Positions 624 through 31,400 of a stretch of 64,000 bases of DNA are shown piece by piece. Each line of letters opens with the position of its first letter. The stretch's first letter is position 1. A model generated the notes under the pieces. It saw nothing but the letters and a program-made list of their open reading frames with translations, ran no database searches and was not told the origin of the DNA. A program made the position numbers and the translations under genes. The stretch covers positions 19,951,073 to 20,015,072 of the forward strand of contig CM066912.1 in the NCBI GenBank assembly GCA_033964015.1, read 5' to 3'. Source of the DNA: Scolanthus callimorphus (lineage: Eukaryota; Cnidaria; Anthozoa; Actiniaria; Edwardsiidae).

Positions 624-712
624 ATGGGTGCGGGCACGTCTACGTATAAATTCAAGCCGAGGCAACCACACCGGAGGAGCAAGAGGGATAAACTAGATGC
701 TGGTCCACGCAG
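624..712 (+). CDS. Borosin-like gene exon 1: basic N-terminal leader
   Basis: This exon encodes residues 1-29 plus two bases of codon 30. It starts MGAGTST and continues with many Lys, Arg and His residues. The donor is cacgcag|gtaggc. The two leftover bases (AG) plus the first base of the next exon give Arg30, so the phase agrees. Gly2 with a small residue at position 6 fits the N-myristoylation pattern, and the following polybasic stretch would suit membrane association. There is no homologous extension that I recall in fungal OphMA. Exon choice rests on phase, Kozak context and splice consensus, not on homology. Confidence 0.65.
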
Positions 713-3700
713 GTAGGCTGTGATAAAAGGGATGAGTGATGTTTATAATCAAGTAACGTGTATTGACGCACCAAATAAGATTTCATCTAGCCTGTTACTT
801 TCACAAGATCTTACATTTTTTCTATCAGATCTCGACCAACTCGAACTAAGTTGGCTTATGAAAATATATTATCGTATCGAATTCTCTGCGGGATCCACAA
901 GCCCTAGGGTATTGTTATTATAAACCTGTGTTTGTGCAGACGTGACACTTGTCTGATGTTCGTGGGTTTAGCGGTTCTAGCTAGTGGGAGCGGAGCGCGC
1001 CCTCAATAAATGGCGCTTATAGAACAATGTACCATAATCAGACCGACAGACATAAACGTGCTATGACTTTCAAATTCAGATATCCTATGTCTAGATATGT
1101 CAGGGAATGTTCTAGGGCTACATAACCCAATGGCCCCTCCCCCTCCGAGGCCCTTGAGTTATAAGGGGCTGTGTCACGGTTTATTTATTTGAATAAATCC
1201 GTAAATACAGCTCTAGCTAAATTTGTATAATCACAGGTACCCCAAGCTACATTGTTGTATTCTATATTGAAATATTTTGAATGAATAAATAAAGATTTGT
1301 CTTCAGATTTGTACCCTGGTTACCAGAGGCTGATCGAAGCTTCACTCGTTTACTGACACGCTAAGCCAAGACGCCGCGATATGAGTGAAGCTTGGAGACT
1401 CTGCTACCCAGGGTATCAGATTTGTGTCTCGTGTCTCAATTTAACAGTAAATATATGGGCTCGCATTACTGGTAGAATTTCGCGATGAAATAATTGTCAC
1501 AAATCCGGAAATAATATTCTTATCTCTTGTTCAGTTGTTTAGGCTGTTCTTCATAAATCATGTGAAGTTTTAGAGGCCATTTCATGCAGTTTTGGTGAAC
1601 TGGGTGCTATTTCTCACGCTGACTCTCATCAACTCTCGTCACCGTTTGATCGCTTCTCGTGAGAGTAGATGAGAGTTGATGATAGTTGGAACTCTCATTG
1701 GCTCTCATCAACTATCGCTTCTCGTGAGAGTAGATGAGAGTTGATGATAGTTGGAACTCTCATTGGCTCTCATCAACTCTCATCACCGTTTGGACCCTGC
1801 TTAAGACATGGGAGATATTTATACTGAGGTCACTATAATGCACCATATATGAAGGATTTATACCCAAAATCGCATGCTATGCTGAACTGATTAGGTAAAC
1901 AATATTATTTCCTTTCTCAGGTTAAACACCCAGGAGTCAGTGAAGCAAAGATGGCAGCAGATAGTGGATGACATAGCCACTAATGACCAGTCCTCGCTCT
2001 GTCAGTCAGGGTCGCTAGTAGTGGTGGGGTCTGGGATCCAGGCCGGGGGGCATTTCACAGTGGAGGCCATGAGTCACATCGAGGAAGCGGACCGAGTGTT
2101 CTACTTGGTAGCCGAGCCAGCCACTCAGGTACAGTCAGCTTAGGGACCGGTCATTATTTTAGGGACCGGTCATTATTTATCGCCTGTGTGCGTGGGAGGG
2201 GGGGGGGGGGGGGGGGGGGGGAAGTGTCAGAGGATTTTGGGTAATACAAGGTCAAAATGCAGTGATCCTCCCTCTATAAATACAGTGATTAACGTGATCC
2301 CCCCTCAGAGCAGTTAAACGTTTTCGTGATCCCCCCCCACCCCCTACTTCACCTAGTAGAAGACAATTTACAGACAGGGTGATCGCATTTTTCTTTCGTT
2401 GTGCGCGAATTTTGATAAACGCATTTCATCAAGCCTCAAAGTGTAGATGAACATTCCGTTTTTCATGTATAGTAAACAAAATCCTCTAGGTTTTATTACT
2501 CATGCGCGCAATTGCGCGCCGAAATGACGGAATTATTATTATTCATTTGTGTGAAGTGAGCCCAAATGACGAATTTCTATGCCTGTAATGTCGAACTCAC
2601 GCTTACTCTTCTTTCAAACATAGTGACTGCCCGTCAGGCCTATCACTGCAAGGCATTTTTGGTAGAGTTTGTTTTTTCCTCGCCAAGATACACTTGTTCT
2701 TGTGCCCGGTGCGAAGGTAGTGTCTTCGTTGCGCGAGTTGCAAGACTACATTAAATGAGCGCGCCGAATTTTTTATGTATTGAGTGAAGTGAAGTAGAAA
2801 AATGCAAGTGATAGAGAAGTTGCTGGAATAACTACTTAGAAAATTTATTGTGATCCCCCCTCTCAGGCCTTCAGGTTTTGGAGATCCCCCCTCCCGCTTT
2901 CCCCAAAATGAAGTGATCCCCCCCCAAAAAATCCTCTGCCCCCCCCCCCCCCCCCCGTCCCTTACTCGACCAACTTCCCTTTGAACACAATGTGACCACT
3001 TCCTCATATCTTAGCGAAAAAAAAAAACTGTTTTGACAAACAAACCTTTGCGCACCGCGTGAGATAAGCTGGTAACATTTCAAAAAGGGGGCGACCACCC
3101 TCTCCCCAAGTCCCTTCTACTAACCACTGCGCGCCACACCGGGCTACCTGTGGCAATCCATATGCGCCACAGGTAGATTGATCAGCTATAGGCCACTTTA
3201 TCTGCAGACCTTTATCAAGCGCCTCAAGCCGGACGCACTGGACCTGTTTGTGTTCTATGGTGAAGGGAAGAATAGACACGTGACCTATAAGCAGATTACA
3301 CAGGTTCTGCTGCTCTACGTCAGGAGAGGAGAGAAAGTGGTGGCGGTATTCTACGGTCACCCAGGTCAGCGGTTAGCATACACTAGTAGCATGCACGACA
3401 TTTGTGCGTAGCACGTGTCAATGTCGTCCCTAGAGCCTTCCGTCGCCTGTTCAGCATTCTCGAACCCAGAGCTCCCCGGCTCGTCGCCTCGCAGGGGAGG
3501 CTCTGGTGACATCCATTGGAGGACCTTCGCTGATTGGCTAAAATGGCGCGCACGCGTACATAAAAGTAGCTTAATCTCGCTTTATAAAAACGTATCTGTC
3601 AAAATAACACTGGCATTCGTTTCCTTGTCGTCTTTTCAACCTATGCCTTCGACTTGAACGCTATAAAAGTAATTGTGAGGCATAACTCCACCATTTTCTT

Positions 3701-6700
3701 TTACGCATGCGTCGGTGGATGTCACCAGAGCCTGCCCCGCGAGCCGGGGAGCTCGAATTCGAGCGAATGTTTGTTGAGAATTCGGATCTATCTTCAAATT
3801 TATTTTCATGCATCTAGCAACAAAAGTCCATTGAACTGAATCTACTGCGCATATCAATCAATCGTTCTCGGTTTTTGCTGAATTGATGCTCTTGCGAGGA
3901 ATAGGTCGAGTCGCGCGGGCTAGCTGTGGGCTATTTTAGCGTGGTTACCGAGCCAAAATCAATAGTTGGCAGATCGAGAACTCGATCGAGTTTATGTTGC
4001 TTCTGCGAGTTTTTCATTTAAAATTTCACCGTTTTCTTGACCCTTTAGTCAAAATTCTTATCAAAAGAGGATCTTCTGTCTCTTCCTAATAAGATAAATG
4101 TTTCCAAATAATGTTTTGTTTCCGTGAGGTGGTGAAAAACGACAGTTTTCGTCGGGCAATATTTGATTTTTAATTTGCATGCTCGTGCGCGCATGTCTTC
4201 TTTTCTATTTCAGGCTATTTGGTGTGCCCATCTCACGAAGCTGTGCGGATTGCACTCACGGAAGGCTTACAAGCAGTCCAGTTACCAGCCGTCTCATCGC
4301 TAGACTGTATGGTGTCAGAACTGGGATTCGAGCCAGGAATTCCTGGATTGCAAGTCTTTGAAGCAACGGACCTCCTTATGTACGGCCGTCCTCTGTTGAC
4401 AGACTGTCACGTGATCGTCAACCAGGCCGGATGTGTTGGTGACGTCACATTTCATCATCATGGCTTCCCCAATCCCCATCTAGCAGTTTTGGTGGAGTAT
4501 TTGCAGGTACAATTTCAATTAGATCTATCGAGCTCAGAGTCGATCTAAATGAGAATTATCCGTCGGCTGAGTGACGTGTCCAACCATCCCGATTTCATCA
4601 GGATCATCCCGATTTTGCCGTTGAAATTTCCGAATTCAAACGCAACCTGGATCAGGCTACGAAATTTCCGATTTTGGAGATTTTGATCACTTAACCGAAA
4701 AATCGGGATCATCCCGATTTTACCGTTGACATTCCCGAATTCAAACGTAACCTGGATCTTTTTCCACCGAAAAAGAAACCGCGCTTCCTGGCGATATGCC
4801 AAAATCCCGATTTCTCAAGTCTCTAGGTTGGACACTTACAACGACATACAGTCGCTGATGATTTTGTGTTGTGCTGCAGAAATTCTACGGTGAAGAATAT
4901 GAGGTATACAACTACATCGGATCGCAGTTTGTAGTATGTAGAAGTGTCATCAACAAGTACAAACTCTGTGATCTCCTGAAGCCAGAGAATGCTGCAAATA
5001 TCCAAGCGATGTCATCACTCTATATTCCACCTAAAGAAAAGGTAGGTGGGACTGACATATGATGGTGATATCTTCATTTATAGACGGCTAACTCTGACAA
5101 CTGACTAGCTGATTTCCACAGATGGCGTCCATACATGACTCATTCTCATCCCTAAAAGAGTCTCTTCGTCCCGCCTATCCCGCCGGCGGGAGGAATATCC
5201 CATTTTGGGGGTTAAGACACGGGTTTTTGGTTTCTTTTAGGGGTATAACCTTGATCTGCAATACAATTTAAGGTAGACTGCCATCTTTTGAGGGCACCAG
5301 CACAGCGGCAATCCTTCAAGAAATAGAGAGTACTTGTTGACAAAAGGATGAATTAGACAACATCAAATGCAGCATTTTAATCAAAGACGGAAATGTCTTG
5401 TCTGGTATCTATATTAGGGTAAAAAATTATTTGAGCCACGCCCTTTTGGGGATCTTTTAGGCTGGGGTGAAACTGAAAATTCCCCGCGATCATCCCCGAC
5501 AAAAAATATGGAAGTTGCCCATCCTCAGTGCAGCAGGTCTTCTTGGGCCTAGTTTATACGTCGCATTTAATTAGACGAATTTAATTGATCAATTAAATTC
5601 GTCTGTGCGACGTATAAAATGGAGGTTCGTTTTATACGACGAATAAAATAAAACGAAGACATACTTCAGACGTTGTATACGTCCAGGGTCGACGTATACA
5701 ACGTCTTGGACGAATTTAATTTTCGACCTTTTTAGGTTCGTTTTATACGTCGCATTTCAGACGAATTTAATGGCGATAATTAAATTCGTCTGAATTAAAT
5801 TCGTCCGAAATACGACGTATGAACTAGGCCTTAGTTACTAACTCACTTCACTGACTAAGGGAAACTCATAATTGTTACGTGAAAATTGTTTAAAAAAGAA
5901 AAAGATCAGATTGATTATGATGTTCGGATTGACCCCTTGATGGAAAAAAAAAACCTTCCATTCTTCTTTTACTCTAGGGGAAGCTTGATGTCGAGATGGT
6001 AAAAAGGATTGGCATGGAGAAGAAATCTCAAGATCAAATACAGACAGATATACAAGGAGCCAAGTCCGCACAGGAAGACCAACCTCAAGCTCAGGCACAA
6101 GAGAAATATCAAGAGGAAAATAGACAGCTCTTCGCTGATTGGCTTTTCCCTGATAACTACACACCCGTAGACCACTCACCACTTTCTGATTTCCTGGAAT
6201 ATGCCAGTTCTAACCCAGCTGTTGTGAAGAAATTCCAGGAAGAGGGAATTCCAGGAAATGTAAAGTTTCCTGAATACCAGGCCATAGCACTGAAGACTAA
6301 AGACTCAGGTTGGATACAGTACGCGCTCAAGTACGATAGCAAGAAAGTGATGGGGGAGATGAGGGAGAGAGGGCTTATAAAGGGCGATGATAGTAACAAA
6401 GGGAAAACAGAGGCAGATGCGATGGGACAAGAAGGCAAAACAGGTGTTAAGAAGGCCAAAAAGGGTTCCAAGAAATCACTTTCTTCCCGTGCTCCACGTG
6501 CAGAACCCTTGTTAGCTGGAGACCCCCAAGAATCAGTAGCTATGCAATCGTCCCCTAAGGGAACGGAAACCTTGGTAGCTGGAGCACAGCAGGAAGCCGT
6601 CAGCCTAGTAGTGGCCCCCAAAGAGACCGTCAGCCCAGAAGCGCCTCCCAAAGAGACATCCGGCCTAGTAGTGGCCCCACAGGAGACCACCGGCCTTGTA

Positions 6701-7216
6701 GTGGCCCCACAGGAGACCACCGGCCTTGTAGTGGCCCCACAGGAGTCCTCCTGCCTAGTAACGGCCCCCAAAGAGACCGTCAGCCTAGTAGTGGCCCCAC
6801 AGGAAACCTCAGGCCTACTAGTAACGGCCCCAAAAGAGACATCCGGCCTAGTAGTGGCCCCACAGGAGACCACCGGCCTTGTAGTGGCCCCACAGGAGCC
6901 CTCCTGCCTTGTAGTGGCCCCACAGGAGCCCTCCTGCCTAGTAACGGCCCCCAAAGAGACTTCCTGCCTCGTAGTGGCCCCACAGGAGACCTCAGGCCTA
7001 CTAATAACGGCCCCAAAAGAGACATCCGGCCTAGTAGTAGCCCCACAGGAGACCCCCTGCCTAGTGGCGGCCCCCAAACAGACCTCCGCCTCAGAAGACG
7101 TGGTAGACGCCCCTTACATGACCGCGCCACTTGTAGTCAGCAACGGACATCATGAAGCCGACTCAGTAGACGCCCCTCCCATGACAGCACCACTTGTAGT
7201 TAGTAAACAACCTTGA
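624..7216 (+). CDS. Borosin-type fused alpha-N-methyltransferase/precursor (six exons, 715 aa)
   Basis: Six exons (624-712, 1921-2128, 3208-3364, 4214-4506, 4880-5041, 5978-7216) join with matching phases (2,0,1,0,0) into 2148 nt, giving 715 residues plus stop. The start has a good Kozak context (G at -3 and +4). Residues 60-303 resemble the SAM-dependent tetrapyrrole-methylase fold of fungal borosin enzymes: VVVGSGI at 63-69, VFYLVAEP at 89-96, FYGHPG at 147-152, and YIPPK near 300. The Tyr116, Arg122, Tyr126 and Tyr148 spacing equals that of the catalytic residues I remember for OphMA (Tyr66, Arg72, Tyr76, Tyr98). Residues about 370-425 look like the helical clasp/binding segment. A Lys-rich linker (435-470) leads to 16 tandem ten-residue units (510-671) and two C-terminal repeats. 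Members of the family methylate backbone amides of their own C-terminal core. The methyltransferase assignment is strong. Use of the repeats as multiple cores is inference. Dense animal-type introns argue against contamination. Confidence 0.9.
1303..1424. mobile_element. Short foldback MITE in intron 1
   Basis: The termini TACCCTGG (1312) and CCAGGGTA (to 1415) are perfect inverted repeats. They are followed by imperfect inverted arms including GAAGCTTCACTC. A 9-bp direct repeat TCAGATTTG flanks both sides (1303-1311 and 1416-1424), consistent with a target-site duplication. The element is non-autonomous and has no coding capacity. Confidence 0.75.
1613..1794. repeat. Local direct and inverted repeats, unit about 65 bp, in intron 1
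   Basis: A segment containing CTTCTCGTGAGAGTAGATGA followed by TTGATGATAGTTGG and GGCTCTCATCAACT occurs twice, starting near 1651 and 1716. GAGAGTTGATGA and TCATCAACTCTC pair as inverted arms, so the block can fold back on itself. Confidence 0.7.
1921..2128 (+). CDS. Borosin-like gene exon 2: SAM-binding start of the methyltransferase
   Basis: This exon encodes residues 30-99. The acceptor is a pyrimidine-rich tttcctttctcag and the donor is actcag|gtacag, phase 0. The exon carries the first beta strand and glycine loop (LVVVGSGIQAGGHFT, residues 62-76) and the helix-strand segment SHIEEADRVFYLVAEPAT. Both are hallmark blocks of borosin methyltransferases and, more loosely, of cobalamin/tetrapyrrole methylases. 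Confidence 0.9.
2141..2963. mobile_element. Foldback element with poly-G/poly-C arms in intron 2
   Basis: The left side has AGGGACC, a run of about 30 G and then CAGAGGATTTTGGG. The right side shows the inverse (AATCCTCTG, a run of about 18 C, GTCCCTT). A 19-bp sequence starting TAGGGACCGG is duplicated at the left edge. Several GTGATCCCCCC blocks recur inside. It looks like a non-autonomous repeat. The homopolymer lengths may be inaccurate in assembly. Confidence 0.55.
3208..3364 (+). CDS. Borosin-like gene exon 3: catalytic Tyr/Arg/Tyr segment
   Basis: This exon encodes residues 100-151 plus one base. The acceptor is ccactttatctgcag and the donor is cacccag|gtcagc. It contains FYGEGKNRHVTY: Tyr116, Arg122 (+6) and Tyr126 (+10), followed by FYGHPG with Tyr148. 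I chose the acceptor at 3206-3207 because it is the one that continues the frame from exon 2 without a stop and lines up with family spacing (EPAT-x-x-FI). Confidence 0.88.
3455..3769. mobile_element. MITE family A copy (TIR with CCCAGAGCTCCCCGGCTCG), intron 3
   Basis: The left terminus reads TTCTCGAACCCAGAGCTCC and the right terminus is its inverse with small changes. Both arms continue through a GGCTCTGGTGACATCC block. Related copies or pieces occur near 27575-27757, 29490-29560, 29672-30060, 48830-49045 and 58245-58470, so this is an abundant foldback family in this genome. Confidence 0.8.
4214..4506 (+). CDS. Borosin-like gene exon 4: second half of the methyltransferase domain
   Basis: This exon encodes residues 152-249. 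The acceptor ttttctatttcag is strong and the donor is ttgcag|gtacaa. It carries LPAVSSLDCMVSELGFEP (175-192), the segment GLQVFEATDLL (196-206), and NQAGCVGD (221-228). All are positions where borosin methyltransferases show matching blocks: the active-site loop around 'P-x-V-S-x-x-D' and the 'Q-x-G-C-V-G' strand near the SAM pocket. Confidence 0.9.
4590..4800. repeat. Diverged direct repeat in intron 4
   Basis: A block of about 50 bp including ATCATCCCGATTTT, CCGAATTCAAACG and AACCTGGATC occurs at about 4611-4659 and again at about 4704-4758. No coding sense is seen. Confidence 0.6.
4880..5041 (+). CDS. Borosin-like gene exon 5: end of the methyltransferase fold
   Basis: This exon encodes residues 250-303. 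The acceptor tgtgttgtgctgcag and donor gaaaag|gtaggt are both consensus, phase 0 on each side. It ends with SSLYIPPKEK, matching the 'S-x-x-YIPPK' block that closes the methyltransferase domain in the family. Confidence 0.88.
5150..5520. mobile_element. Degenerate copy of MITE family B, intron 5
   Basis: Pieces such as TTTCTTTTAGGGGT, AAATTATTTGAGCCACGCCC and GGGGTGAAACTGAAAATTCC, ending in CGATCATCCCCGAC and AAAAAATATGG, match the better-preserved elements at 19378-19812 and 21450-21893. The terminal arms are eroded. Confidence 0.65.
5545..5832. mobile_element. Foldback element with GACGAATTTAATT palindromes, intron 5
   Basis: The ends GGGCCTAGTTTATACGTCGC and (inverse) TACGACGTATGAACTAGGCC pair. 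The interior is built of repeated inverted blocks (AATTAAATTCGTC / GACGAATTTAATT and GTTTTATACG). It is a hairpin-forming, non-coding MITE. Confidence 0.75.
5978..7216 (+). CDS. Borosin-like gene exon 6: clasp, linker and repeated core region
   Basis: This exon encodes residues 304-715 and the stop TGA at 7214-7216. The acceptor is ttcttcttttactctag. It opens with a charged, Gln-rich linker, then a helical block (SPLSDFLEYASSNPAVVKKF, residues 370-389, and a second helix to about 425). The block resembles the DP-x-x-L-x-x-F helices of the borosin clasp and binding domain. A Lys-rich linker follows, then the decapeptide array and two copies of a VDAP-x-MTAPLVVS motif that ends four residues before the C-terminus. 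Putting leader, enzyme and cores on one chain is the fused fungal-type layout. Confidence 0.9.
   Translation, partial: GKLDVEMVKRIGMEKKSQDQIQTDIQGAKSAQEDQPQAQAQEKYQEENRQLFADWLFPDNYTPVDHSPLSDFLEYASSNPAVVKKFQEEGIPGNVKFPEYQAIALKTKDSGWIQYALKYDSKKVMGEMRERGLIKGDDSNKGKTEADAMGQEGKTGVKKAKKGSKKSLSSRAPRAEPLLAGDPQESVAMQSSPKGTETLVAGAQQEAVSLVVAPKETVSPEAPPKETSGLVVAPQETTGLVVAPQETTGLVVAPQESSCLVTAPKETVSLVVAPQETSGLLVTAPKETSGLVVAPQETTGLVVAPQEPSCLVVAPQEPSCLVTAPKETSCLVVAPQETSGLLITAPKETSGLVVAPQETPCLVAAPKQTSASEDVVDAPYMTAPLVVSNGHHEADSVDAPPMTAPLVVSKQP
6596..7081 (+). repeat. 16-unit in-frame decapeptide repeat (candidate borosin cores)
   Basis: Sixteen units (fourteen of 10 and two of 11 residues, protein residues 510-671) follow the pattern [TPSA][TSV][GSC]LVVAP[QK]E. 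Five units have Cys and nine have Gly or Ser before the LVV; one unit (TVSPEAPPKE) is degenerate. At DNA level the 30-bp units are nearly identical, which points to recent tandem duplication or gene conversion. The hydrophobic LVVA/LVTA stretch resembles the Val/Ile/Gly-rich cores of known borosins. The invariant Pro in each unit could be a prolyl-peptidase cleavage point. Methylation itself cannot be seen from sequence. Confidence 0.9.
7103..7204 (+). repeat. Two-copy C-terminal motif VDAP-x-MTAPLVVS
   Basis: Residues 679-691 and 700-712 repeat the same 13-residue motif, spaced 21 residues apart and ending four residues before the stop. The position at the extreme C-terminus is where single-core fungal borosins carry their core, so these copies are alternative core candidates or a recognition follower for the decapeptide array. 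Confidence 0.75.
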
Positions 7217-7416: not shown

Positions 7417-8172
7417 GACGCTCCTGTCTTCTGTACATGTCCTGTGATGCGCAAAAGCAAATCCTTCCTAGGATGTTTTAGGCTATCGATGTGTTGAATA
7501 ATCAAAGATCATAAAACCATTATCGTATGTTCGATTTCGCAGAATATCGGCCAATTTGGACAACTCGGCACCGCGAGTCAGTATGAACGATATTCTGTGC
7601 AGTCTAGCAGGAAAATGGTTTGAAGTATCGTGCAATTATTCAGACGGCCGCCATTTTATTAGCCTAGTCACACGTACCGAACAAGAGAAAGCATACATTT
7701 CCTGGTAAAGTGCGATACTTTCTATTGAATTAGAAAAATCAACTAGCGTCTTGTTTGTTTTTGTTTTAGACGGTTATATTACTAGGTTATTCTTTTTAGT
7801 TCTGGGGGTGGCTTACAAGGACAAAAGGCCTTGCATCAAAAAAGCTAAGCTTGTGCGAGGAGGTCATCTAGTATGAAATAATTAGTTAACAGACGACAGA
7901 AGTTACACAAAATGAGAAAAAAGGCAGTACGGACGGTTTATACTCATCTAGAATTAGGTTGAAACATTCTGATAGCTTTGACTTTGAAAGACTGTAAACT
8001 AGTTAGTGTAAGCAAACTCTCTCTTCACTGGAACTGATTTCATGAATAAATTACGTTATTGCTATACTGAATTTATAAACGGTTGCCGACTTGAATAACT
8101 CAGTGAGGCGAAAACAATATTCAGTGAATAACTCAGTGAGGCGAAAACAAATTCAAATTAAATCGGATTTCG
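7417..8172. other. Intergenic, no gene seen
   Basis: This convergent intergenic stretch lies between the borosin-like gene and the SLC46-like gene. An AATAAA lies at 8045-8050, and a duplicated block AATAACTCAGTGAGGCGAAA occurs at about 8093 and 8127. No convincing coding sequence was found. Confidence 0.4.
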
Positions 8173-8407
8173 AATTTCAGAATTTAGCCCACGACCAACT
8201 CCAAAGAACGTTGGATGCAAAAAAAATGAGGCCGCTCGTGACCACAAATTTTAACTGTAATACCCCAAGGAGACGACCATTTGACTTTTGGGGGAGGGGG
8301 GGGGCTTTTTTTAAAAATAATTTCCTGCACGGCCCGAAGGGCCCAAAAAATCCTGCATCCTTTGTTTCAAGGGAAAAAATAGACAAGTACAGCAAAAAAT
8401 ACTATTG
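8173..8407. repeat. Dispersed repeat C, copy 1
   Basis: About 235 bp are nearly identical to 11014-11249, starting with GAATTTCAGAATTTAGCCCA and containing a poly-G run and GCACGGCCCGAAGGGCCC. It has no coding capacity. Both copies are in the same orientation, and the second lies within an intron of the SLC46-like gene. Confidence 0.85.
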
Positions 8408-8576
8408 CAAGTCAAATGCTTCTGAAAAATATCCTGCTCGCCAAAAAAAGCTCACCCCACCCCTCAATAGTTAAATGGTCGGCCCCTAAGACCTTCTACC
8501 CTAGGAAACTTTGCGGTCTGGTTGGTCTGGTCACATTTGGCTTTCGACAACGATTCTTAAAAGAGAAAAATATCTA

Positions 8577-8727: not shown

Positions 8728-11700
8728 CTGTGGGGATGAGAACAAGAATCATTATTATTATTCAGCCATGTCACTATCGCGATTCTGACTGGCTAAGAGT
8801 ATCCAGTGAAGTCTTGTTGGTTTGTGACGTCACTGTGCAGACAGGCTTGATGCACTGTAATGACGTCATAATGCAAGGCAATAGGTTTGGTCGCCATGTT
8901 GGTTTTATTTCATATTTTGCCAATATTCTCGTTAAATCTGTTATGATTTTTGCCGAGAGATCATTGCTCAGGATGCATAAACATCAACTAGACTATGAAG
9001 ATCCGTTATTGACAAACGGCTATTGACAAACGTAAACTAGTATTTTTACATCACCAAAATTGCGCTAAAATCGTGGCCCCGCTGGTTTAAAGGAGCGGAT
9101 TTACCCTGCATATAATGCAATGCTTTGCCTCCATTTTCGATACTAAAAAACTTAGTGCATTTTACGGTACGAACGCAAGAAAAAAATGGTGATAGCGGGG
9201 TAGTCAAATTACGTACATAATTGACGTTCTCAAAGTCTATAAAAATGTCTTCTAGTTGGTGGTTGGGTCATTTTCAAGACCTGCCATAGTAACAAACGAT
9301 CACAGTTATTTGTAATATCGGTCTGCCTTAAAAGACAATTAATTAAACTTGAACGACGCAGAGAAATTGAGCGGCTGCGCATTCTCCGTGAACGCGAAAA
9401 GCGCGAGCGTCTTGAGCGGGAAAGATGTGAACGTGAAAACGTCGAAAGCGAAAGAATGGAACGCGAACGTAACGAGCGCGACCGTTTGCAGCAGGTTGAT
9501 CATCGCTTCTCAATTACTTTGTGACTTATTTTTATGACTATGTAGCAGGTATTTCAATAAGTGTAACTATCAATGATATGTGATTCGAAACGGTATCCAT
9601 ACCCCTCCAATGAAGGAGGGGGGGGGGGGGGTGAGATATGACCCCACACCTTGGGAATTTTCAGTGACAAAGTGAGTGTGTGGAAAATAAAAATAAAAAC
9701 TGACCCTCCCTCACTCCCCTCTTAAATTAAAATTCCAGTCCCTTCCATGGGCAGGGTGTGGACGTTTTTTCTGGAATCACACAATGTCAATAACAAAGGA
9801 TCACTACTTACAGGGGCGTAGCCAGGAATTTTGGTTGGTGGGGGCTGGGGGGGGGGGGGGGCAGATAGTGAAAACATGGGACGAAAATTTTCAAATTTCC
9901 TCCAGCAAATACAGTAAATGTATGGGAAAATCCCATACATGGGGGGGGGGGCATGGCTACGCCCCTGTCTTACCATATTAGAAAGACTGGAAGTACTAGG
10001 ACTACAGCGCCAACCAAGAATGTTAATCCCGGTAATGACCCATACATGGTTGCAGAGTAGATATTATTGAATATGGCATATGCTAGAAAGAGGCTTATAC
10101 TCTCAATGCAACCAACTGCTGCAAACATTGAACCTGAAATACAGAAAAACCAGAATGAGCGCAACTAGCCAGTGGCATACACAGGAGTTTTAAAAGTTGC
10201 AGTCCCAGCCTTGTGCATACATAGGATTTTGCAAATTACAGGCCAAGCTCATAAATGCAGTACAGTACTTGTATCAAAGTCACCCCACAAATATGCAGCC
10301 TTGTGTCTGCAGGCCCATAAAGGCTGTGTATGCCACTGCCAGCAGGCATTTCATAGAAAGGAGGGACCCATTCTTGTACCCAAAGCTCCCCTGAGCTGGT
10401 CACATTGCACAGGGACAAATTAAACTTTCTGCACATTCAAAATCAGCCAATCAGGAGAGGCTCTGAAATTGCTGTCATCAGAGACACCCCTGTGAGGTGA
10501 TGAGCAAGGGGTCTGAGAATGGGAGGAACACAACTATTAATATGATTCTGGTGATCAATGACAGAAAGTGAATGTACATTTTTGACTAGTATAAAACATC
10601 AGCAAAACAACCATCTTTTTACAGCTAAAACCATTGCATCACGACCCACATTTTCAAAACATCAAATTATGTTGATCTTTTACTTTGCTGTTCTGCCAAA
10701 TGTCTCAGCCAATGAAACTCCTTGCCTGCTCCACCTAGTGCAGTCAATTGCTTTCCACTGAACTAAAACCAGACAATGTTGTGATGGAAAGACAGGCGAC
10801 TGCACTTAGGCAAAAAAGGGCAAGAATTGGCTCATAAATTTGACTGACGGAGCAAAGCCAAAAACATATCTCGATGTTTTGAAAACGTTGTTCTGCGATG
10901 CAATGATTTTAGCTATAACCACATTTGAAAAAAATTTCAACACAATTATGCCAATACCTTGCTGGTCTTGCAAAATCGGCAACCAATGAATTTAATTTAA
11001 TTAAAACATTTCGAATTTCAGAATTTAGCCCACGACCAACTCCAAAGAACGTTGGATGCAAAAAAATGAGGCCGCTCGTGACCACAAATTTTAACTGTAA
11101 TACCCCAAGGAGACGACCATTTGACTTTTGGGGGAGGGGGGGGGGGCTTTTTTGAAAAATAATTTCCTGCACGGCCCGAAGGGCCCAAAAAATCCTGCAT
11201 CCTTTGTTTCAAGGGAAAAATAGACAAGTACAGCAAAAAATACTATTGCTGTCATCAGAGACACCCCTGTGAGGTGATGAGCAAGGGGTTTGAGAATGGG
11301 AGGAACACAACTATTAATATGATTCTGGTGATCAATGACAGGAAGTGAATGTACATTTTTGACTAGTATAAAACATCAGCAAAACAACCATCTTTTTACA
11401 GCTAAAACCATTGCGTCACGACCCACATTTTCAAAACATCAAATTATGTTGATCTTTTACTTTGCTGTTCTGCCAAATGTCTCAGCCAATGAAACTCCTT
11501 GCCCTGCTCCACCTTGTGCAGTCAATTGGCTTTCCACTGAACTAAAACCAGACAATGTTGTGATGGAAAGACAGGCGACTGCACTTAGGCAAAAAAGGGC
11601 AAGAATTGGCACATAAATTTGACTGACGGAGCAAAGCCAAAAACATATCTCAATGTTTTGAAAACGTTGTTCTGCGATGCAATGATTTTAGCTATAACCA

Positions 11701-14411
11701 CATTTGAAAAAATTCAACACAATTATGCCAATACCTTGCTGGTCTTGCAAAACCACTCTTGACATACAAGCCCTTAACACTGATAATGGCATAATAGCCA
11801 GGGCTTCAAGTACAGGTACTGAAAAGAGAAAACATCAAAGTTATATTTGTCAAAGGCATTAGAATTTTGAACACATTGTTCAGGTGGTAACTCAAGCATC
11901 AACATTGCATTGTGTTCCACATGACCAATTGCCAAGCAAACTATATTGAATTACCCTCGCTGGTGAAAAGAGTATCTAGAAAGAGAAGATTGAAGACCGA
12001 AGACCCCCTGAAAAACGAAGACCAAAATGAAGACCCCCTCAAAATCAAATACCAAAAATGAAGACCCCCTAGAAAATGAAGACCCCTAGAATACAAAGAC
12101 TCAAAAACAAAGATCCTAGAAAACAAAGACAAAAATGAAGACCCCCTGGAAAACGAATACCAAAAACAAAGACCTCCTAGAAAATGAAGACCAAATACAA
12201 AGACCCCCTAGAAAATGAATACCAAAAACATAGACCCCCTAGAAAACGAAGACCAAAAACATAGACCCCCAAGAAAACGAAGGCCAAAAACAAAGACCCC
12301 CTAGAAAACGAAGACCAAAAATGAAGATCCCCTAGAAAACGAAGACCAAAAACATAGACCCCCAAGAAAACGAAGGCCAAAAATGAAGATCCCCTAGAAA
12401 ACGAATACCAAAAACATAGACCCCCTAGAAAACAAAGACCAAAAACAAAGACCCCCTAGAAAACGAAGACCAAAAATGAAGAGCCCCTAGAAAACGAAGA
12501 CCAAAAACATAGACCCCCAAGAAAACGAAGGCCAAAAACAAAGACCCCCTAGAAAACGAAGACCAAAAATGAAGACCCCCTAGAAAACGAAGACCAAAAA
12601 CATAGACCCCCAAGAAAACGAAGGCCAAAAACAAAGACCCCCTAGAAAACGAAGACCAAAAATGAAGACCCCCTAGAAAACGAGGACCAAAAACATAGAC
12701 CCCCAAGAAAACGAAGGCCAAAAACAAAGACCCCCTAGAAAACGAAGACCAAAAATGAAGACCCCCTAGAAAACAAAGACCAAAAATGAAGAACTCCTAG
12801 AAAACGAAGACCAAAAACATAGACCCCCAAGAAAACGAAGGCCAAAAACAAAGACCCCCTAGAAAACGAAGACCAAAAATGAAGATCCCCTAGAAAACGA
12901 AGACCAAAAATGAAGACCCCCTAGAAAACGAAGACCAAAAACATAGACCCCCAAGAAAACGAAGGCCAAAAACAAAGACCCCCTAGAAAACGAAGACCAA
13001 AAATGAAGATCCCCTAGAAAACGAAGACCAAAAACATAGACCCCCAAGAAAACGAAGGCCAAAAACAAAGACCCCCTAGAAAACGAAGACCAAAAATGAA
13101 GACCCCCTAGAAAACGAAGACCAAAAACAAAGATCCCCTAGAAAACGAAGACCAAAAATGAGGACCCCTAGAAAACGAAGACCAAAAACGAATGTGATGT
13201 TGTGTAAAAATTGTTTCCGCTGGTTTTGTCAATCTGGATGAATAGGACGAGTCTCTGTTTTTGGTTGTCCTTTTCAAGGGGGTCTTTGTTTTTGGCCAGG
13301 TCACCATTTTTCCCTATATATGGACATAAATAAGAAAGCTGAGTTAACACTTACCTAGAAACAGCATCACCACTGTGTTGGCAAAAGTTGCAAGAACCAA
13401 ACCAGCAATTGCAGAACAGAGTCCAATCTCTATCATCCAGTGATTAGAGAAATTAGGAATCAACTGTAGCAACTTGACAGAAAGAAGGCTTGTGATAAAA
13501 CCACAACTTATAGCTCCATTTAGGTAACCAGCCAAGATAGGGCCAAAGCAGAATGGCCATTTTAGAGAGTACAGCAGCATCAAGTCATCGGTCCCTGTCA
13601 GAGCCATTTCTATCATTCCAAAACAAGCGACATAGATGATCAACATCCATCTATGATTGGACGGACTGGAGAAGACTTTCCACATATCAACAAAATGCTG
13701 TAGGGTTAGCACTTTCACTCGTGTATCTTGGATTATGGTTTCCCGTACGAAAATAATTGTATAAACAATACTTGCAATATGACAAGCAAGGATTAACCAG
13801 AAAGGATTTTCGAAACCCTCGGCACGTATCCAGTAACCACTGATAAACCCTGCCAGCCCACTACCAACACCAATAAGGGTGTCAACGGTAACTATACGTA
13901 AAGTACGATGCCGTTTGCTTGTGATATCTGCAATGTATGCCATACATGCCGCAACTGTGGTGGTAGTATATCCTGATAGGCCACATATAATATTGCCAAT
14001 CAAAAGATATGGTATTGGCAAATTAAGATATACAACCAGAATATATACAATGCATTGTACTATTCTGCCAACTGACGGAATGATTAAAACCATTTTACGT
14101 CCAGCTCGGTCACTCCAAGCTCCTAACAGCAGTGATGTGAACATTGCGGGAATAATAGCAGCAATATTCAAGTAAAGCAACCACAAGGAAGCATCTTTCT
14201 GTGCAATATTTTCTCTTGCTTGTGCTGAGGTGGTGATGTTGATGCAGCTCTGGTTGCTATTTGTGATGATGGTGGCATTTGACAGGCGGTTGTCATCTTG
14301 TGAGAGTAATTTATGATAGATGTACTGTTGGCTGACAGGTGTCAACAAAGCTGCACCAAACAGGGACAGGAAGGCTATTGGTTCGACTGTCACAGGAAAA
14401 CAGCCTCTCAT
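8577..14411 (-). CDS. SLC46-family (PCFT-like) MFS transporter, three exons, 455 aa
   Basis: Minus-strand exons 14411-13355, 10133-9974 and 8727-8577 join with matching phases into 1368 nt, giving 455 residues plus stop, close to the usual 450-460 of SLC46 proteins. Twelve hydrophobic segments are expected. The N-terminus TVEPIAFL begins TM1. A loop with three N-glycosylation sequons (Asn45, 53, 58) follows, then the MFS signature LGAWSDRAGRK (96-106) between TM2 and TM3, and the family block GYWIRAEGFENPFW (191-204). The last exon is a Ser-rich cytosolic tail. SLC46 members are plasma or lysosomal membrane transporters for folates, haem or cyclic dinucleotides; the substrate here cannot be read from sequence. 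ATG 14411 lies 15 bases inside its exon, so 5' untranslated exons lie upstream. Whether an additional coding exon precedes is not excluded. Confidence 0.88.
8750..9010. repeat. Dispersed repeat D, copy 1
   Basis: The segment from TTATTATTCAGCCATG to ACATCAACTAGACTATG matches the reverse complement of about 60090-60360. Shared blocks include AATGACGTCATAA, GCAATAGGTTTGG, CGCCATGTTGG and AGATCATTGCTCAGGAT. The copy lies in the SLC46 intron next to exon C. Confidence 0.75.
9310..9524 (+). pseudogene. Arg/Glu-rich coding-like fragment, SAFB/SLTM-like
   Basis: An open plus-strand frame reads ERRREIERLRILREREKRER and continues RLERERCE.. to DRLQQ before running into a stop at about 9522. Such RE-rich coiled helices with this wording occur in SAFB/SLTM scaffold-attachment factors. 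CAGCAG|GTTGAT at the end could be a splice donor. No neighbouring exon of such a gene is visible, and the segment lies inside an intron of the opposite-strand transporter. It could be a retropseudogene piece or low-complexity coincidence. Confidence 0.35.
9811..9966. mobile_element. MITE with CAGGGGCGTAGCCAGG termini
   Basis: The left end CAGGGGCGTAGCCAGGAAT and the right end GGCTACGCCCCTG are inverted repeats, with G-runs inside each arm. Repeats with this terminal sequence are widespread in animal genomes as non-autonomous DNA elements. It abuts exon B of the transporter. Confidence 0.75.
9974..10133 (-). CDS. SLC46-like exon B (TM11-12)
   Basis: This exon encodes the segment SMFAAVGCIESISLFLAYAI and the last hydrophobic helix, ending VFLI plus two bases of a Trp codon. 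The acceptor is ctgtatttcag, the donor is atatg|gtaaga, and phases fit both neighbours. The family motif 'VGCIE' before TM11 supports SLC46 membership. Confidence 0.9.
10472..11755. repeat. Tandemly duplicated block of about 500 bp, flanking repeat C copy 2
   Basis: The sequence 10472-10975 (from GCTGTCATCAGAGACACC to TTGCTGGTCTTGCAAAA) is repeated almost exactly at 11248-11755. Repeat C copy 2 (11014-11249) lies between the copies. A related segment (TTTTCAAAAAC-GTCAAATTATG, then CTAGTGCAGTCAA) is found at 42002-42240. The whole lies within the SLC46-like intron. Confidence 0.85.
11970..13195. repeat. Minisatellite, GAAGACCCCCTAGAAAACG / AAAAA units, 1.2 kb
   Basis: About 1.2 kb of tandem units of 30 bp or so are built from GAAGACCAAAAATGAAGACC and CCCTAGAAAACGAAGACC, with a higher-order alternation of AAACATAGACCCCCAAG and AAACAAAGACCCCCTAG variants. 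The array is in the large intron of the SLC46-like gene. Minus-strand open frames through it (GVYVFGLRFLG) are periodicity artefacts. Confidence 0.95.
13355..14411 (-). CDS. SLC46-like exon A (first coding exon, most of the protein)
   Basis: This exon encodes residues 1-352 plus one base. The acceptor (minus strand) cttccaccag lies at 14426-14427, so the exon begins at 14425 and the start ATG is at 14411. The donor is tctag|gtaagt at 13355/13354. It contains TM1 to about TM10, the AWSDRAGRK loop and the GYWIRAEG motif. Confidence 0.88.
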
Positions 14412-15780
14412 CTTGTATGAATTATCTGGTGGAAGAAAAAATGTTAAGCCTTCCTGCATGTGCTTTTGGATTATTTGTATTTATTATTTGTGCTTAAAGC
14501 ATGACATAATCTTTTTTTCACTGTTGTTGGAGACGAGACAGAAAACTGAAAGCATTTCCAAAACTTCATAGCAGCATCTTGATTGCCCTATTAGAAACAT
14601 GGCATTTGTTAATTTGGAACACAACTTTATGTTGCCCAAAACTACACAAAATCGTTTGGTGCCCATGCTTAAATTATATGCAACTAACAGTTGATTGAAA
14701 AAGTACTGTGCGATTGTGTGGTTCCAGAAAATATCCATCCCCCCCCACACACACACACAAAAGGGAGTTGAAAAGTGACCACCAACCCACATCAAACCAT
14801 CCCTCTCGAATTTCCAAAGAAAAATGAAAAATACAGTATTTGTATGGAAAAAGTCAGGTAAATTCCACCTCCCCCCACCCTTTGGAATTTCCAATAAAAC
14901 TGAAAATTTGGAGATGAATTTCTCTTAAACTGATTCCTTGCTAGCAGAGGCCTCTTTTCTGCATTTCAGTGGCTAATAATAATCAATGTATGCTAATATG
15001 CGTGCGCATATAGTGGGCTTAAGAAATGGTTAGCAAACCATACAAGGTTGTGGACGGCAGCAAAACAAAGTGAGTTTCAACCCAGGGCAGAGGTCTCTTT
15101 TCCTAGCAACCCTTAGCCAAGAAAATGCAGAGAAAAGAGGGTAAACTAACAAGACAATTATTAATTTACACAAAGTTTATAATTTTTTTGACTAATTAAA
15201 TCTCAGAGGCTTGCTCCCTTATGTACTATATTCTATTTTGCCATTATAGCCTTGCAGTCTTGTCATCAAATATAGACATTTCTAATATTGATCGATTACA
15301 GTACATTGATTGTACTTTTGTATCCTAAGATTATCATCATTATTATTTAAGCTTAGATGTACTAAATTAGTCAATCTTACAAATCAAGATTAAGAATATC
15401 TGTTACTTACACTTACTCGATGAGAACAATGCACTCGTACTAGAACTTCTTCTAGTAGAAGAAGCAAGGTTTTTTACGTCTGATCAAAAGTTCCAAAGTG
15501 AAATCGAACGCTTAATCACGCGACCGGATATAGCCAAGGGGGATCTCGTCATGTTCTAAAGCGGAAAATTTCACACTGACGCATGGCCAGGCTGATTTCT
15601 GTGAACTCGAAGGAAAACAACAGGAAATGGAAATAATACTGCGCCATGCCCCGCCATTTTTGATTTTTAAGAGGAGAGGGCCTGGGTTCACTCCACAGGG
15701 ACCCCGATACTAACGAAGTCAAATGTGTCGCTTTTGTCAAAGCAAGATGAACAACGTTCTCTCCAAAATCTGCAAGTTTT
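14412..15780. other. Upstream region of the SLC46-like gene
   Basis: It is expected to hold the 5' untranslated exon(s) and promoter of the minus-strand transporter. A (CA)n run lies at about 14749-14760. An AATAAT-rich segment and no convincing coding exon were seen. Confidence 0.35.
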
Positions 15781-27757: not shown

Positions 27758-28089
27758 GCGCTGGATTTTAAATATCGTGTTTAGTGCGCATGCTATTTTA
27801 GTCCGACTTTCTTGATTTCTTATGTTTAACAAAAACAAAGAGAAGTTAAATAAACGATAACATGATTTTCAAAAGGTACCGACTTTACACTCAAGAGACA
27901 AATATCACCAAATGCTGAAGCAGACGGTAGATTATTAGATTTCTTGTTTTGCAGATCAACACTCTTGGTAATGTTTTCTTGCCAAAACTGTTTATCAATC
28001 AAAAAATATGTTGTTCTCTTCAAAGCTGATACAACTGCTTCAAGGTGAAGGTGCCAATTATAGTGCGAAACGCCCGACAGCAGAGAACC

Positions 28090-28445
28090 ATGAATAACAT
28101 TACCACGACTCCGAGTCTGATAAACACAACCACAGGAAACCCGAGCCTGCTTAATTTCACCACAGGGAGCCCATATCTGCGCAACGCCACCACAGAACCC
28201 CCGAGTCTTCTATGCGCTCGAAGTTCTATCGACAGGAACCCGTCCCGCGGATATTACTTTGCAGCTGCGCTTGTTGTAGGCTGTTTGATCATGTTCGAGA
28301 ACCTTCTAGTATTTGTGGCAGTGGCCAAGACAAAGAAGCTGCGGAAGACGGCATACCTCTACATGGCCTCGCTTGCAATGGCGGACTTCCTTGCGGGGCT
28401 GCAGATTGCAATTGCTTTCAGGAAACAGGAACACGCTGATACTGG
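28090..28445 (+). CDS. GPCR exon 1 (N-terminus, TM1-TM2)
   Basis: This exon encodes residues 1-118 plus two bases. The donor is ctgg|gtaagtga. It contains the glycosylated N-terminus and the first two helices with Asn 1.50 and Asp 2.50 equivalents. Confidence 0.88.
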
Positions 28446-31400
28446 GTAAGTGAGCTACGCCGTGGCGCCATTTGTCTGGATTTCCTCCAGATGGAAGCCA
28501 TTCAATTGCAAATCTTCAAGAGCGTGTTGATTCGACGGTTTTTTGACGCATACGCTGAAGAGCCCACTCCCGCGTTTATTATTTTTGTTCTCAGTCTGAT
28601 ATGGGACAGTATGTTTGTTTGTTTCTCCTGTAGAGTTGTCTCCTTTAAAAGAGTGCTAACAGAAGTACAAGGCGCGAACACTAATCTGTGTTGTAAAACA
28701 TCTTTAATTAAACAAAAAAACGTATGTTAGTATTGCAGTGTTAAATTCTTTGCCTGCAAAACACGTCCTTCATAATAAATAGGAGACTATACTACTATCG
28801 CGAGAACAACAACTCGCACGCCCTTGGAATTCTACAAATGTACTTTGGATCATCGCGATGTTACATACACTCTTTTTTTATAAGAACGTCTAAGAATCGA
28901 CTTCAGCCTGGGCAAAATCAGGTATTTTTTACAGTAAATGTATCAGAATGTTCTTAATATTTGGCCATATTTCAGCCTCGACGTTCTTTTAAAAAAGGTT
29001 CTTATAAAGAAAAAAGAGTGTATCTTGCCTGAAAACCTTTATTTCGTTGCATGTTTCCCAGCAAAGAGATGGAGCTCATCCAATCCCTGTTCCTGACCAG
29101 CATAGGCGTTTCCTGTTTGACTCTTCTCCTCCTGTCAATCAACCGGTATCACGTGATCGTCCATCCGTTTCACTACCGCGTCAATATGAACAACACAATT
29201 ACTGCAGTTGCCATAGCAGCCTCCTGGGTGTACGCAATTGTACTGAGTTTTGCGCCAATGATGGGGTGGGAAGACGCCACGGATTGTTCCCGAGTCTACC
29301 CTGGTCTGACGAGGAGTTTTGTGTTTTTCGCCAGTTTACACGTGCTTGTTGTGTTATTGGTCACCATTGTGTTGTATGTGCTTATTTTTATCAAGGTAAG
29401 TTGTTGTCTCTTTTTTGATTGTTTTTAATCTCAAGTCGTGAACTCTTTGTCATTCAAAACTCGTGGCATATCTTAACGTTTGAATTTTGACGGATGTCAC
29501 CAGAGCCTCCCTCGCGAGGTGACGAGCCGGGAAGCTCTGGGTTCGAGAATGAGCTACATTTGGCAAAGAAAGTGTAAAGAGTGCGCGCACTGCTTCCTAT
29601 GCTAGTTGTGGGTCATACCAAGTGCATTTCTAACTGAATGCGCGCGAAGGCTATAGCCGGAATGGTCCATCACATTCTCGTACCCAGAGCTCCCCGGCTC
29701 GGTATCTCGCAGGGGAGGCTCTGGTGACTTCCATTTGAGGCCCTTCGCTGTTCGGCTTAGTTTGAACGTTCGGGCATGCGCAGGAAGCTCTCTTAACGGC
29801 TCTCGATCTCGTACGCGGCTCTGGGGGGAATCGATTTCTTTCAAACCCAGATTCTTGGTTTCCGATTTGAAAAAGTTCGTTTTGTTTTCTGTATGATCTT
29901 GATCTCCCACGCATGCTCACAAATGGGATTACCCCAAAAGCCCCGAATCTTGCCGCGGGCCAAAAGATGACGGGCACTGGATACGAGATTGAACGGCTCT
30001 GTATAAAAGCTCGCGCATGCGCCTGTGGCTGTCACCGAGCCTCCGCTCTGGGTTCGTGAATGGACCCATCATAGTTTCATAATACTCTTATGCTTTTCTG
30101 ATTCCGTGTTCTTATAGGTCCGCCAGAGCTCCAAGCGATTCAAGAAACAAACCACAGCCGATCGTACTCACTGGAAAGTCGCTAAAACTTTGGCTATAGT
30201 CACGTTCGCGTTTGCCGCGTGTTACATCCCGCTGATGACTGTTGGTGTCCTTGACCTTGCGGGCGATGTTACGTACACCAAAATCGCGCCATTCTTCACA
30301 CTGCTGGCTGTCTTAAACAGTGGGCTCAATCCAGTGATCTACGCATTCCGGGATACTGATCTGAGGTAATTGCATTCTGTAAAAAAGTACATACCTTGTG
30401 TTCTAATCATAGAGCAGAGTGTCGAAAACTAACACGCAAGAGCAGAGTGTCGAAAACTAACACGCACAGTACATACACTTAGCCAGTCAGAAACGAAACC
30501 CATTCAACAACAAACCAATCAGGGGACGAAGTAAGTACATTCAGCCAATCAGAAACTAAACCCATTCAACAACAAACCAATCAGGGGGCGAAGTAAGTAC
30601 ACTCAGCTCATCAGAAACTAAACCCATTCAACAACAAACCAATCAGGGGGCGAAGTAAGTACATTCAGCCAATCAGAAACGAAACCCATTTAACAACAAA
30701 CCAATCAGGGAAGTGCGACTTACCCAAGACAATACGATCTCGGGTGTATTTGGTTTTACTTCACATTCTGATTGGCTGACTCGGCTGACAAACAAAGACT
30801 CAAGATCTCAACCAATAGGAACGCGTAGACAGTCATCTGAAGTCCGCTCCACTAAACTGGGCACAACCAGTTTCATTTTATTCAACATCATTCATCATTG
30901 CTTGGACGCGCATGTTGAACGGGGGTGCGAAACGAGTGCAACATCGTCCATCATTGCGCGTTCAAAAATGATAAATGGTGTAATAATACGGTGAGCTGGT
31001 TTGCCGCCAGCCTAAGGCTGCGTACACACTTGGTGCACGAGCACCAGTGCCCGAGTATTGTACTCGAGTATTGTACCCGAGTATTGTACCTGAGTATTGT
31101 ACCCGAATATTGTACTCGATTATTGTACCCGAGTATTGTACTCGAGTATTGTACCTCGAGTATTGTACTCGAGTATTATACCCGAGTATTGTATCCGAGT
31201 ATTGTACCGGAGTATTGTACTCGGGCACAAATGCTGTGCACGCAATTTTGCTTGGGCACTCGAAAAACTGGTGTGTTCACATTAGTACCCGTGCTCGGGC
31301 ACCGAGCCCGGGCAAACCCTAGAGCAGATTGCATATGACTGTGAAATGTGCCGTGAGAGGGCGCAGCACTGTCGCGGTCGCGGCACGGAACCTGGCCTGC

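Follow-up and report, generated by a model that had tools for sequence, protein, structure and literature searches.

A candidate fused borosin precursor with a fifteen-unit repeat tail encoded by an intron-split gene of Scolanthus callimorphus

Gene structure and borosin features

Does an animal genome encode a protein that would methylate the backbone of peptides carried on its own chain, as the fungal borosins do? The question is raised by a six-exon gene at positions 624 to 7,216 of a 64,000-nucleotide stretch of Scolanthus callimorphus DNA (contig C2, 19,951,073-20,015,072, in an assembly of 597 Mb and 302 contigs; hereafter the window). From its sequence and by analogy with known systems, we consider it probable that this gene encodes a fused borosin-type precursor that methylates its own fifteen-unit tail, likely acting on the partner chain within a dimer. 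All exon joins are canonical GT...AG, and the six spliced exons (exon 6 as a whole spans 5978-7216) translate to 715 residues with zero internal stops, bearing out the in-frame structure proposed in an initial annotation of this DNA. The product begins with a basic extension (residues 1-54), followed by a methyltransferase domain (residues ~55-303), a predicted clasp (residues 304-437) and a repetitive tail. The closest relative among the matches listed in three protein searches (best 120 of 348, all 86, and best 120 of 367 matches) is Actinia tenebrosa LOC116289411 (P0001), with 54% identity over 90% of residues 1-437 (E 2.7e-139). The parts of the gene are as follows:

624-712, plus strand: exon 1, with the start codon at 624; residues 1-29 and part of residue 30, in the basic N-terminal extension
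1921-2128, plus strand: exon 2, with the GSGI nucleotide-binding loop and the FYLVAEP block of the methyltransferase domain
3208-3364, plus strand: exon 3, with the active-site segment (F113 and residues 116, 122, 126 and 148) and FYGHPG
4214-4506, plus strand: exon 4, the second half of the methyltransferase, including QAGCVGD; residues 222 and 225 are equivalent to OphMA Q172 and C175
4880-5041, plus strand: exon 5, the end of the methyltransferase domain, including YIPPK
5978-6379, plus strand: exon 6, first part; residues 304-437, a predicted clasp or borosin-binding-type helical domain, from profile-profile comparison and the helices of the Actinia model
6380-6595, plus strand: exon 6, Lys-rich linker; residues 438-509, whose counterpart in the Actinia homologue is predicted to be disordered
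6596-7081, plus strand: exon 6, tandem array; residues 510-671, 15 units and one degenerate unit, consensus TSGLVVAPQE, putative core peptides
7100-7204, plus strand: C-terminal segment in which VDAPxMTAPLVVS occurs twice, within residues 678-712
713-1920, 2129-3207, 3365-4213, 4507-4879 and 5042-5977, plus strand: introns 1-5, inside the span 713-5977

The borosin methyltransferase blocks named in the initial annotation (GSGI, FYLVAEP, the Tyr-Arg-Tyr segment, FYGHPG, QAGCVGD and YIPPK) are all present in the spliced product. In a search against the PDB, residues 55-435 align to OphMA 4-389, clasp included (E 4e-67), and residues 1-437 reach 25 distinct sequences at E<=0.001, labelled OphMA variants, dbOphMA, MroMA and SonM-type. 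The sole Pfam family above the cut-off is TP_methylase (PF00590, a superfamily model; 4.8e-14), so that the two comparisons proposed in the initial annotation, with OphMA structures and with PF00590, both return matches; a mucin-like Pfam match in the repeats falls below threshold. Because of the E values for OphMA, the Actinia protein and PF00590, chance resemblance is excluded. Siroheme-type NCBIfam models score far below their cut-offs (32.5 of 525, 22.6 of 400 and 13.6 of 185 bits), and these scores, together with the predicted fold of the Actinia homologue, speak against a generic tetrapyrrole methylase of the siroheme or uroporphyrinogen type. The comparisons support a methyltransferase domain of borosin type, distinct from other tetrapyrrole methylases. 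Elsewhere in the genome, C3:11508368-11508481 is the sole domain-level PF00590 match among the first 40 positions listed, and is perhaps a diphthine synthase.

To compare active sites, we aligned the window protein with OphMA and 20 other proteins. It keeps OphMA Y66, R72, Y76, Y98, H100, Q172 and C175; in exon 3, residues 116, 122, 126 and 148 correspond to Y66, R72, Y76 and Y98, and F113 to Y63. Passages of PMC6108569 report no detectable methylation on purification when OphMA is changed at R72, Y76 or Y98. A clasp or borosin-binding helical domain is predicted to follow the methyltransferase, as in fused borosins: a clasp profile of eight rows, two of them unlabelled proteins, matches the fungal profile at 98% (E 1.2e-14, profile-profile), and the monomer model of the Actinia homologue has confident helices in this region. 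The N-terminus, MGAGTS, presumably matches a myristoylation motif, and no signal peptide was seen by eye at the N-terminus of the 715-residue product, which agrees with a cytosolic reaction.

Repeat tail and proposed peptide route

The hydrophobic tail sits on the same chain as the enzyme and clasp and is rich in Ala, Val and Leu. Each of its 15 units contains an Ala-Pro step; 13 units are ten residues long and two are eleven, three contain a second Pro, and one further unit is degenerate. In the proposed route, the methyltransferase and clasp half would use S-adenosylmethionine (SAM) to N-methylate backbone amides in the repeats, with the LVVAP cores as putative substrate and methylation at Leu, Val and Ala amides. 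By analogy with OphMA, the enzyme half of one chain would act on the units of its partner in an interlocked dimer; this would require a chain that loops back, since ~70 residues separate the clasp from the first Val-rich units. A proline-specific peptidase may then release peptides by cleavage at the Ala-Pro steps and, as there is one such step in each unit, this would yield peptides of about ten residues. Release after Pro is a natural guess because prolyl oligopeptidases process omphalotin and other precursor peptides, according to passages of PMC12235650; no peptidase was found among the 10 that were scanned of the window's 51 open reading frames of at least 100 amino acids. The released product may be a defensive or signalling peptide.

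Known borosins provide both precedents and contrasts. OphMA and dbOphMA, the fused fungal enzymes of the omphalotin family and members of what we take to be 'type I', likewise carry a methyltransferase, a clasp and, towards the C-terminus, the substrate region within a single polypeptide. OphMA differs in having one core instead of 15 tandem units, Y63 in place of Phe, and a fungal rather than an animal origin. The bacterial type III fused borosin KchMA has a long putative core, comparable to the long tail here; it places up to 11 modifications on its own tail, with a preference for Ala, Val and Leu, although passages of its description mention no short regular tandem array (PMC11395268). In the split bacterial system SonM/SonA the substrate is a separate protein, unlike the window gene. 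The Actinia tenebrosa homologue shares the domains, a repetitive tail and the Y63 to Phe change, whereas its tail repeat has another sequence, a longer period and Arg-Lys pairs.

The initial annotation had held a metazoan borosin to be undescribed. Family membership, fused architecture and residence on an animal chromosome stand, but 'undescribed' was too strong, because Xu et al. 2024 already name a borosin of the animal Paramuricea clavata, in cluster 5 of their similarity network; in the passages of that paper concerned it is, like the window protein, a fused enzyme, a comparison made by description only, those passages reporting neither a core nor a locus or activity for it (PMC11395268). 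In the literature searched, which left out preprints and most subscription papers, we found no account of an animal multi-core borosin, of its chromosomal context, of a bivalve or sponge member, or of activity. We take Paramuricea clavata to be an anthozoan of the octocoral group, and the window species to be hexacoral-like from its mitochondrial tRNA set. Near the end of contig C1 (44059067-44108563), full-length COX1 occurs three times at a spacing of 16,446 bases, reflecting either a tandem-assembled mitochondrial genome or a nuclear insertion. ARAGORN, run with the bacterial code on one such unit, returned just two tRNA genes: one for Met, and one whose TCA anticodon would specify Trp under the mitochondrial code; a Met and Trp set is typical of hexacoral mitochondria.

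Relatives, chromosomal locus and second copy

Relatives of the window protein, under the source databases' own organism labels, span three animal phyla: sponges, cnidarians and bivalves. The sponge protein, from Oscarella lobularis, has 279 amino acids and consists of the methyltransferase only, and the bivalve proteins come from Mya arenaria (two proteins), Pecten maximus, Argopecten irradians and Ylistrum balloti. The remaining organism-named matches listed are from bacteria, one archaeon and fungi. We built a tree from 56 methyltransferase rows, 55 of them hand-picked from 306 proteins plus the window protein, with the metagenome protein P0002 excluded. The window protein groups with Actinia at 100/100. 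All eight animal rows lie in one part of the tree, away from the fungi, together with the unlabelled P0200 and P0201, Enhygromyxa, Serratia, Sphingomonas and a metagenome row, on a branch with weak support (90/54). A common origin of the animal and fungal proteins was rejected, since the fit is significantly worse when they are held together (approximately unbiased test, p 0.0012), and OphMA-type fungal rows do not group with the window protein. A single clade of the eight animal rows was borderline rejected (p 0.048), whereas adding P0200 and P0201 to that clade, a choice made once the tree was known, gave a grouping that was not rejected (p 0.43).

Several relatives have layouts of their own. 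By eye, P0003, P0004, P0121, P0208 and P0209 each carry two borosin-like methyltransferase domains in tandem, and all 37 of the proteins P0162-P0198 carry PF00990 (GGDEF) besides a borosin-like methyltransferase, several being named diguanylate cyclase; a GGDEF borosin appears in the Figure 1 legend of PMC11395268. The scallop proteins P0202, P0203 and P0204 share a tail motif around KSYIPxHIxPxFVFND, which would suggest that their core differs or that function was lost. Mya arenaria copy a (396 amino acids) ends in a short Val/Ile-rich segment resembling fungal precursor tails; the two Mya proteins, P0122 and P0199, are both listed on a 63,369,314-base contig, one of them with this short OphMA-like tail.

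Of the 13 matches returned by an exon-wise search of the genome, six fall within the window and the other seven belong to a single further copy on the 125-kb contig C201 (C201:1-10000). This copy is colinear through the introns, with 98.5% identity over a 2.6-kb block and 94.8% over the longest block of 3.7 kb, which contains the repeats, and is probably the other haplotype. Parts of introns 1, 2 and 5 have no counterpart in it; window positions 2461-2954 (intron 2, flanked by long G and C runs) and 5542-5829 (intron 5) are largely missing from it and are perhaps recent mobile-element insertions. In its array, one 30-base unit is lost and one gained elsewhere relative to the window. Judging each base alone in the window's frame, we counted three amino-acid-changing and five silent substitutions in residues 1-437, and nine and four in the tail, where repeats make the alignment uncertain. 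Small as these numbers are, they suggest a conserved enzyme half and a more variable tail, the pattern expected of an enzyme and its product. Single-base gaps between the copies fall in exons in four of 13 cases, roughly in proportion to exon length in this stretch, and assembly error therefore fits them as well as decay.

The flanking transporter and receptor genes proposed in the initial annotation were found as a major facilitator superfamily (MFS)-type reading frame and exons of a rhodopsin-type G-protein-coupled receptor (GPCR):

13347-14480, minus strand: MFS-type transporter open reading frame
28030-28446 and 29033-29425, plus strand: rhodopsin-type GPCR exons

Intron repeats common to the rest of the window, also claimed there, are present in introns 3 and 5 and weakly in intron 2. 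Downstream of the gene, a direct repeat of ~250 bases is 97% identical between window positions 8156-8408 and 10999-11249.

Weighing the alternatives and meaning of the locus

A number of observations weigh against a precursor that methylates its own repeats. OphMA Y63 is replaced by F113, and Phe is also found here in Actinia and Mya copy b. Passages of PMC6108569 report that Y63F lowers methylation by OphMA, as do Y66F and Q172A, none abolishing it, and passages of PMC8429565 report a 15-fold lower kcat, without loss of activity, for SonM-Y58F, the Y63 counterpart. Since both Phe variants are reduced but still active, the window enzyme would by analogy be slower or differently tuned, not dead; Tyr is also not strictly defining, two of the six fungal proteins compared having Ala or Ser there. 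A clasp profile of the two cnidarian sequences reaches just 66% (E 5.5e-5) against the fungal profile, and the clasp alone, as a single sequence against the PDB, matched no borosin even at E up to 10. The array begins ~70 residues past the clasp, protein-level constraint on its units is weak (ratio of nonsynonymous to synonymous differences, pN/pS, 0.56 over 13 units), and differences between units number 216, 52 and 191 at codon positions 1, 2 and 3, the first varying like the third. Kinship of the window and Actinia tails is not demonstrable, as 155 of 500 shuffles reach the real score; with the P0002 tail the figure is 25 of 500, and homology over the full tail is not supported by either test. 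For the last 44 residues, a segment picked by eye, one (Actinia) and seven (P0002) of 500 shuffles score as high, and the Actinia and P0002 tails share a repeat with each other (score 144, best of 500 shuffles 52). Scallop tails lack a Val-Val core by eye. Finally, the C201 copy has frame-breaking single-base indels in exons 2, 4 and 6.

Some of these points favor an enzyme that N-methylates another protein or peptide, with the repeats as a disordered spacer or binding region. Split borosins modify a separate precursor (in passages of PMC11285071), the tails of the window, Actinia, scallop and Mya proteins are strongly unlike, unit order differs between the two copies, and the array is distant from the clasp; we nevertheless consider this reading unlikely, given that the hydrophobic repeats are joined to enzyme and clasp in a single polypeptide, as in fused borosins, and that KchMA methylates its own long tail at residues abundant here. 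Less likely still is lost or changed chemistry, leaving a non-catalytic protein or a small-molecule methylase of the tetrapyrrole methylase superfamily, which the Phe at Y63 and the single Pfam family above cut-off would suit and which the activity retained by the Phe variants does not favor. A recently inactivated relic, open in one copy only, would explain the frameshifts on C201, but the reading frame and every splice site of the window copy are intact, differences in residues 1-437 are mostly silent (three of eight change an amino acid), and the exonic gaps fit assembly error equally; we give it little credence. Bacterial, fungal or symbiont contamination, suggested by the mostly bacterial or fungal labels among the organism-named matches listed, is ruled out for practical purposes by the five GT-AG introns, a position 20 Mb inside the contig, the MFS and GPCR neighbors, the window-shared repeats, the second copy colinear in exons and introns, and a closest listed relative labelled Actinia tenebrosa. 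The gene is a resident animal gene, as first annotated, and the self-methylating precursor remains our preferred reading.

The backbone N-methylated peptides found in marine invertebrates are usually attributed to microbes or non-ribosomal pathways. We see an even chance that animals run their own ribosomal route, through a metazoan borosin family of sponges, cnidarians and bivalves separate from the fungal one, in which a single core has given way to a fifteen-unit array yielding many N-methylated, perhaps cyclic, peptides of about ten residues. The enzyme would then have to process a repeated array instead of a single core, and the scattered presence in three phyla poses the question of gene transfer versus deep inheritance with loss. 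If the reading is true, animals too, beyond fungi and bacteria, may make such peptides, and the locus would offer a testable animal source of ribosomal N-methylated peptides and new peptide scaffolds.
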